From: an uncultured Rhodospirillales bacterium | GTDB lineage: Bacteria; Pseudomonadota; Alphaproteobacteria; Reyranellales; Reyranellaceae | Reading direction: 5' to 3' | Length of the DNA: 52,058 nucleotides | Assembly: GCA_945957125.1 (NCBI GenBank) | Contig: CAMFJT010000012.1 | Location: 1-52,058, forward strand | Part shown: positions 5,834 to 52,058 of the stretch, piece by piece | Layout of the letters: each line of letters begins with the position of its first letter | Numbering within the stretch: position 1 is the stretch's first letter | The notes under the pieces: generated by a model | The model's input: the letters and a program-made list of their open reading frames with translations, nothing else | Told to the model about the DNA's origin: nothing | Databases searched by the model: none | Translations under genes and position numbers: made by a program

Positions 5834-7057
5834 ATGGTGGATCGGGTGGGCGCGTGGCGCCGTCGTCATGTCTTGGCCGGAATGATGGGAGCGACGGCCG
5901 CGCTGGCCGCGCCGTCGATCGGGCGCGCGGCGCCGTCGGGCAAGCCGGTGCGGGTGGGTGGCACGCTGTCGCTGACGGGCTTCCTCGCGCAGACCGCGGT
6001 GGTCCACAAGATCGCGTCCGAGATCATGGTCGAGGAGATCAACGGCCGTAACGGCTTCCTCGGCCGTCCCGTCGAGTACGTGCTGCTCGACGACCAGTCC
6101 AAGCCCGAGGTGGCGCGCAGCCTCTACGAGAAGCTGATCACCGTCGACAAGGTCGACCTGATCCAGGGACCGTATGCGACGGCGCCGATCCTGGCGGCGA
6201 TGGGCGTGGCGCAGCGCTACGGCAAGGTGATGATCCAGAGCAGCATGGGTATCCCCAAGCTGCAGACCTACGACCGCGCCTTCCCGGCGACGCCGTTCGG
6301 GCCGGAGCCGAACGTCACCTATCCCAACGTCATCCTCGACGCGCTGGCGACGTTCCCGACGCCGCCCAAGTCGATGGTGGTGCTGACCTCGAAGTTCCCC
6401 TCGGCGCAGTTCATGGCGCTGGGCATGAAGGAGCAGGCGGAGAAGCGGGGCGTGAAGGTGCCGCTCTATCTCGAATACGAATCGGGCAATCGCGATTTCG
6501 GCGCCATCGCGGCGCGCGTGAAGGAGGCGAATGCCGACTTCCTGTGGGTCGGCTCGCTCGGGCTGGAGAGCAACCTGCTGCTCGAGGCGCTGCGCAAGCT
6601 CGACTACGTGCCGAAGGGCTCGTTCCATCTCTATCCCGCGCCGGGACCGCTCGCGGTCTCGCCCGACGGCGACAAGGTGCTGTGCTCGACCTTCATGGAG
6701 CCCGCCGAGCCGTTCATCAGCCGGCCGGGCGTGGCGCGCATCGCGCAGGAATACAAGGACAAGGCGACCAAGGCGAACCTGCCCTACACGACGCTCGATG
6801 CGCAGGCCTGCGGCATGGTCGCGGAATGGCAGATCCTCGAAGCCGGCGTGAACGGCGCGGGCAGCCTCGAGGACGAGAAGATCGCCGCGTGGCTGAAGAA
6901 GAACAAGGTCGACACGATCTACGGCAGCACGCGCTTCGACGGCCCGTTCAACCACGGCGACGCCGCGCAGCTCATCAAGCAGGTGCAGAACAAGGAATGG
7001 AAGGTCGTCTGGCCGACCCAGTTCGCGGCACCGGGCGTGAAGCTGATGGCGTCGTAG
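5834..7057 (+). CDS. HAAT-family solute-binding protein, possibly Tat-exported
   Basis: A 407-residue periplasmic receptor of the Peripla_BP_6 type, first gene of the second transporter. The N-terminus (WRRRHVLAGMMGATAALAAP, then GRAAP) is a positively charged leader with a twin-arginine-like RRRHVLAG, so Tat export is possible; Sec export is the alternative. The mature part shows VGGTLSLTGFLAQ and VEEINGRNGFLGRPVEYVL, typical of the fold. GGAGGA at 5824-5829 supports the ATG at 5834. It is only distantly similar by eye to the receptor at 1193, so the two systems probably bind different ligands. A family A palindrome lies between this gene and its permease gene. Confidence 0.92.
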   Translation: MVDRVGAWRRRHVLAGMMGATAALAAPSIGRAAPSGKPVRVGGTLSLTGFLAQTAVVHKIASEIMVEEINGRNGFLGRPVEYVLLDDQSKPEVARSLYEKLITVDKVDLIQGPYATAPILAAMGVAQRYGKVMIQSSMGIPKLQTYDRAFPATPFGPEPNVTYPNVILDALATFPTPPKSMVVLTSKFPSAQFMALGMKEQAEKRGVKVPLYLEYESGNRDFGAIAARVKEANADFLWVGSLGLESNLLLEALRKLDYVPKGSFHLYPAPGPLAVSPDGDKVLCSTFMEPAEPFISRPGVARIAQEYKDKATKANLPYTTLDAQACGMVAEWQILEAGVNGAGSLEDEKIAAWLKKNKVDTIYGSTRFDGPFNHGDAAQLIKQVQNKEWKVVWPTQFAAPGVKLMAS

Positions 7058-51511: not shown

Positions 51512-51559
51512 CTGGCGTAACCGGGTGCCGGGATTGTAAAGCCGGCACTTGGACGCCAG
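51512..51559 (+). promoter_or_regulatory. Nested stem-loop after the cco genes
   Basis: CTGGCGT (51512-51518) pairs with ACGCCAG (51553-51559), and inside it GTGCCGG (51525-51531) pairs with CCGGCAC (51542-51548), with an internal loop between the two stems. It lies in the 122-base gap before the cyclase gene. No T run follows, so it may be a transcript-end structure or a leader element. Confidence 0.4.
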
Positions 51560-51621
51560 CAGGTTGTCGTCTAGGCTGACATCGCCGCAGGGGGAGATCG
51601 GGCACTGCCCGAAGGGGGCCG

Positions 51622-52007
51622 ATGCGCTGTCACGCGTGCCAGACCGAGATGAGGGCCGGCGACCGGTTCTGCTCCGGTTGCGGAGCGCCGGCCCGCACGT
51701 CGCTGATTTGCACCGACTGCGGCACCGAGAACCAGGCGACGAACGCCTTTTGCGTCGGGTGCGGCCACCGCCTGATGCCGGTCGCGATCGCGCCCGGCGG
51801 TCCCGGCAGGACGCCGCGCGACACGGAGCGCAAGTTCGTGACCGTCCTGCGCAGCGACCTGGTCGGCTCCACGCCGCTCGTGGCGGGCCTCGATGCGGAA
51901 GACGCGATGACGCTGATCGAGCCTGCCATGGTTGCCATGCGCGCGGCCGTGCGCCAGTACGGCGGGATCGTCACCAAGGAGCTCGGCGACGGCGTGCAGG
52001 CGGTGTT
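51622..52007 (+). CDS. Zinc-ribbon class III adenylate/guanylate cyclase, 3' end missing
   Basis: The first 128 or so codons of a larger gene. Two zinc-ribbon units come first (CHAC...CSGC and CTDC...CVGC, residues 3-48), then a class III nucleotide cyclase domain begins with RKFVTVLRSDLVGSTPL, whose aspartate is a metal ligand, and reaches KELGDGVQAVF, which holds the second. Proteins with this start often continue into an ATPase/TPR region. Genome sequence ends at about 52007; the residues after QAVF in the reading frame come from sequencing adapter. Confidence 0.85.
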
Positions 52008-52058
52008 CTGTCTCTTATACACATCTCCGAGCCCACGAGACTAAGGCGAATCGCGGTT
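52008..52058 (+). other. Nextera sequencing adapter (not genomic)
   Basis: CTGTCTCTTATACACATCT (52008-52026) is the Tn5 mosaic end used in Nextera libraries. It is followed by CCGAGCCCACGAGAC (52027-52041), the read-2 adapter, and TAAGGCGA (52042-52049), a standard i7 index. The final nine bases look like low-quality adapter continuation. These bases should be removed. Confidence 0.98.

Follow-up and report, generated by a model that had tools for sequence, protein, structure and literature searches.

The window analysed here, a stretch of 52,058 nucleotides, comprises the entire contig C12 of a draft genome of 432 contigs and 6,409,682 bases. At the end of the contig, the 5' part of a gene for a predicted nucleotidyl cyclase is joined to a series of short blocks that match the parts of a sequencing library adapter (Table 1). 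Going outward from the junction, across positions 52008-52058, the blocks follow one another in the order CTGTCTCTTATACACATCT, CCGAGCCCACGAGAC, TAAGGCGA and ATCGCGGTT. We take the first of them, a 19-mer, to be the synthetic Tn5 mosaic end, and TAAGGCGA to be the index named N701.

Table 1. Coordinates of the features at the end of the contig
Feature	Position	Strand	Evidence or remark
Genuine 5' part of the truncated gene: predicted double zinc ribbon, then the beginning of a class III nucleotidyl cyclase domain	51622..52007	+	DZR and Zn_Ribbon_1 matches; full-length relatives
Tn5 mosaic end CTGTCTCTTATACACATCT, presumably synthetic	52008..52026	+	Exact match
Nextera read-2 adapter stub CCGAGCCCACGAGAC	52027..52041	+	Exact match; identical string in published adapter
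i7 index TAAGGCGA (presumably N701)	52042..52049	+	Gives false stop codon TAA, 52042-52044
Start of P7 tail, ATCGCGGTT for expected ATCTCGTAT	52050..52058	+	6 of 9 bases matching

The 19-base mosaic end is present in a single exact copy in the window and was never recovered in 100 shuffles. Agreement with the expected adapter is exact over the first 45 bases, namely the mosaic end at the genomic junction, the stub, TAAGGCGA and the ATC that begins P7, and reaches 48 of 51 bases when the whole P7 tail is included. The Illumina Nextera read-2/i7 read-through adapter shares with the contig end the mosaic end, CCGAGCCCACGAGAC, TAAGGCGA and the start of ATCTCGTATGCC, and the two differ at three of the last seven bases (52053, 52056 and 52057), as expected at an error-rich read end. 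These mismatches in the P7 tail probably reflect the low quality of the end of a read, and a cleaner P7 start, ATCTCG, is seen on contigs C53, C71 and C385. From the stub onward, the adapter string is as published in the BBMerge paper, where CCGAGCCCACGAGACTAAGGCGAATCTCGTATGCCGTCTTCTGCTTG, with the same i7 index, serves as adapter string (PMC5657622).

The genuine part of the interrupted gene amounts to 128 complete codons and two bases. The apparent frame (51622-52044) encodes 140 residues and has its stop inside the index, so that residues 130-140 derive entirely from the adapter, as do the third base of codon 129 and the stop itself, which is made of the first three index bases. Pfam recognises DZR and Zn_Ribbon_1 on the fragment; its cyclase start aligns to the relatives, and the fragment breaks off before enough of the domain is present for a Pfam cyclase match. 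The closest relatives share 38-49% identity with it over 129 residues. Nearly all of them belong to the same genus, and most have open frames of 1,000-1,230 amino acids. One of them that we scanned (L032) contains zinc ribbons, Guanylate_cyc and AAA_16. The interrupted frame is the N-terminal part of a protein predicted to combine a double zinc ribbon with class III nucleotidyl cyclase and AAA-type domains.

In those relatives that were read across the position of the junction, GAP or GTP comes after the motif GDGxxAxF. At the same motif position, the frame in the window goes on with CLLYTSPSPRD and a stop, which replace GAP or GTP. The first-pass annotation had held that the last residues and the stop codon of the cyclase frame are artefacts and that the true gene extends past the contig, and the relatives, with their continuation into GAP or GTP and their length, agree with it on both points. 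Because the relatives are long, and residues 130-140 and the stop come from the adapter, the true gene very probably extends past the contig by about 900 codons or more. The 158 bases ahead of the junction have no match elsewhere in the assembly. When the assembly was queried with downstream parts of two proteins, a relative and a paralogue on contig C191 (open frame of 1,084 codons), only paralogues were returned, and none of them could be recognised as the missing portion. The rest of the cyclase gene presumably falls into a gap of the assembly. Two further spurious frames use adapter codons, one on the minus strand (51630-52022) and one in the third forward frame (51549-52058); the adapter contributes a starting MYKRQ and a terminal SLIHISEPTRLRRIAV, and gene callers may report these frames.

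We searched all contigs of the genome for the pattern of the mosaic end, with the reversed pattern as control. The mosaic end occurs in 26 copies on 26 of the 432 contigs, one per contig; searches with a 14-base prefix and with two mismatches returned the identical 26 places, and the reversed pattern had no match in the genome. All 26 copies lie within 76 bases of a contig terminus and are oriented outward, and no interior copy was found among the 432 contigs. The warning, made from C12 alone, that other contigs of the assembly may be contaminated has therefore proved right.

Beyond the mosaic end, 14 of the 26 ends run into the read-2 adapter and 12 into the read-1 adapter. Thirteen of the read-2 ends have the exact stub followed by TAAGGCGA, and one more has TAAGGCGA after a stub with a one-base deletion. 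On the 12 read-1 ends the mosaic end is followed by GACGCTG..., in its clean form by GACGCTGCCGACGA and then AGAGGATA, presumably the reverse complement of the index named S503. This i5 index reads AGAGGATA in six ends and AGAGGAGA in three, and is degraded to G or cut in the rest. The index pair is consistent throughout: every read-2 end has the same i7 index, TAAGGCGA, and the read-1 ends share one i5 index, AGAGGATA or degraded forms of it. This single pair points to one library behind the whole assembly. Several adapter-bearing contigs also have terminal poly-G, and such G runs suggest two-colour sequencing chemistry.

Two dispersed repeats are found in the neighbourhood of adapter ends. 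The 22-base element CTTCGCTGGGACCGCGCCACTC is present in the genome in 38 exact copies (G000:C25:37153-37174 and G000:C287:52-73, loci L002 and L015, and 36 other places). Many of the copies are close to contig ends, and two directly adjoin an adapter. Given these positions, some adapter ends may be assembly breaks at a repeat. A second element, CTGCTGGGAGCGCGG, has 25 exact copies, with none in the reversed control (for example G000:C61:27322-27336 and G000:C365:4193-4207, loci L004 and L022, and 23 other places). It adjoins some adapter ends and may belong to a family of palindromic repeats.

The interruption of a gene next to a mosaic end that is used in laboratory Tn5 transposons would also be found if a real Tn5-type element or a laboratory mini-transposon had inserted in the cyclase gene and the contig stopped shortly within the element. 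However, the end repeat continues as sequencing adapter, index and start of P7, without transposon sequence. Moreover, all 26 copies of the mosaic end are terminal, with none in the interior of a contig, and they lead into two alternative adapter arms, each with one index. These observations refute an insertion of Tn5 or IS50, and we consider a transposon of any of these kinds extremely improbable. Even less credit can be given to a chance resemblance between the adapter and a natural sequence, either a repeat or a gene end, in favour of which we found no evidence. If the four bases are taken as equally frequent, the expected number of exact occurrences of a 42-mer in the two strands of 6.4 Mb is approximately 10^-18, and the absence of the reversed pattern from the genome goes in the same direction. 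In addition, homology to the relatives stops exactly at the junction. On the basis of this expectation and of the controls, we rejected the chance match. No biologically novel reading of 52008-52058 survives, and we see very little prospect that one could hold. It is instead virtually certain that these bases are untrimmed Illumina Nextera (Tn5) library adapter and not sequence of the organism. This was also the initial reading of the contig end, with the right coordinates. It is borne out by the exact match and by a published adapter string that is identical down to the index, and we found no evidence that speaks against it.

The adapter would have reached the contig end through a series of events. 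Tn5 tagmentation would have attached the mosaic end and the adapters to genomic fragments, and wherever inserts were shorter than the read length, reads would have run on into the adapter, the index and the P7 or P5 tail. If these reads were not, or not fully, trimmed, the assembler may have extended contigs into the adapter where true coverage ended or branched. At the level of the reads, this history presumably involved short inserts, lack of trimming, and low local coverage or repeats.

The same artefact is found in other public assemblies. Scanning public genome contigs with a 34-base query composed of the mosaic end and the stub, we found the adapter in at least 120 stretches. Among the matches listed, 127 of 129 adapter copies are no more than 60 bases away from the end of their stretch, and many different indices are represented. 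These adapter-terminated contigs of draft genomes and metagenome-assembled genomes have the same adapter in the same outward terminal position as C12, and, among the matches listed, mostly other i7 indices, such as AGGCAGAA, CGAGGCTG and CTCTCTAC. In one of them (L053, NZ_JAELTJ010000202.1, 6633-6822) the adapter is followed by a long poly-G at the contig end, and in another (L072, JAOAJQ010000047.1, 3943-3976) it lies inside a scaffold, beside a run of N. With at least 120 stretches elsewhere, nearly always at an end, this is a common and familiar artefact without biological novelty. In the literature searched, we found no dedicated paper on Nextera adapter contamination of assemblies or on the peptide YTSPSPRD.

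Positions 52008-52058 tell nothing of the organism, except that the interrupted gene is cut short. They matter for data quality alone, as adapter is attached to at least 26 ends of contigs in this assembly. Genes at such ends acquire false termini, such as ...CLLYTSPSPRD and ...SLIHISEPTR, that can enter protein databases, and simply screening the contig termini for the mosaic end would be enough to remove the adapter ends.
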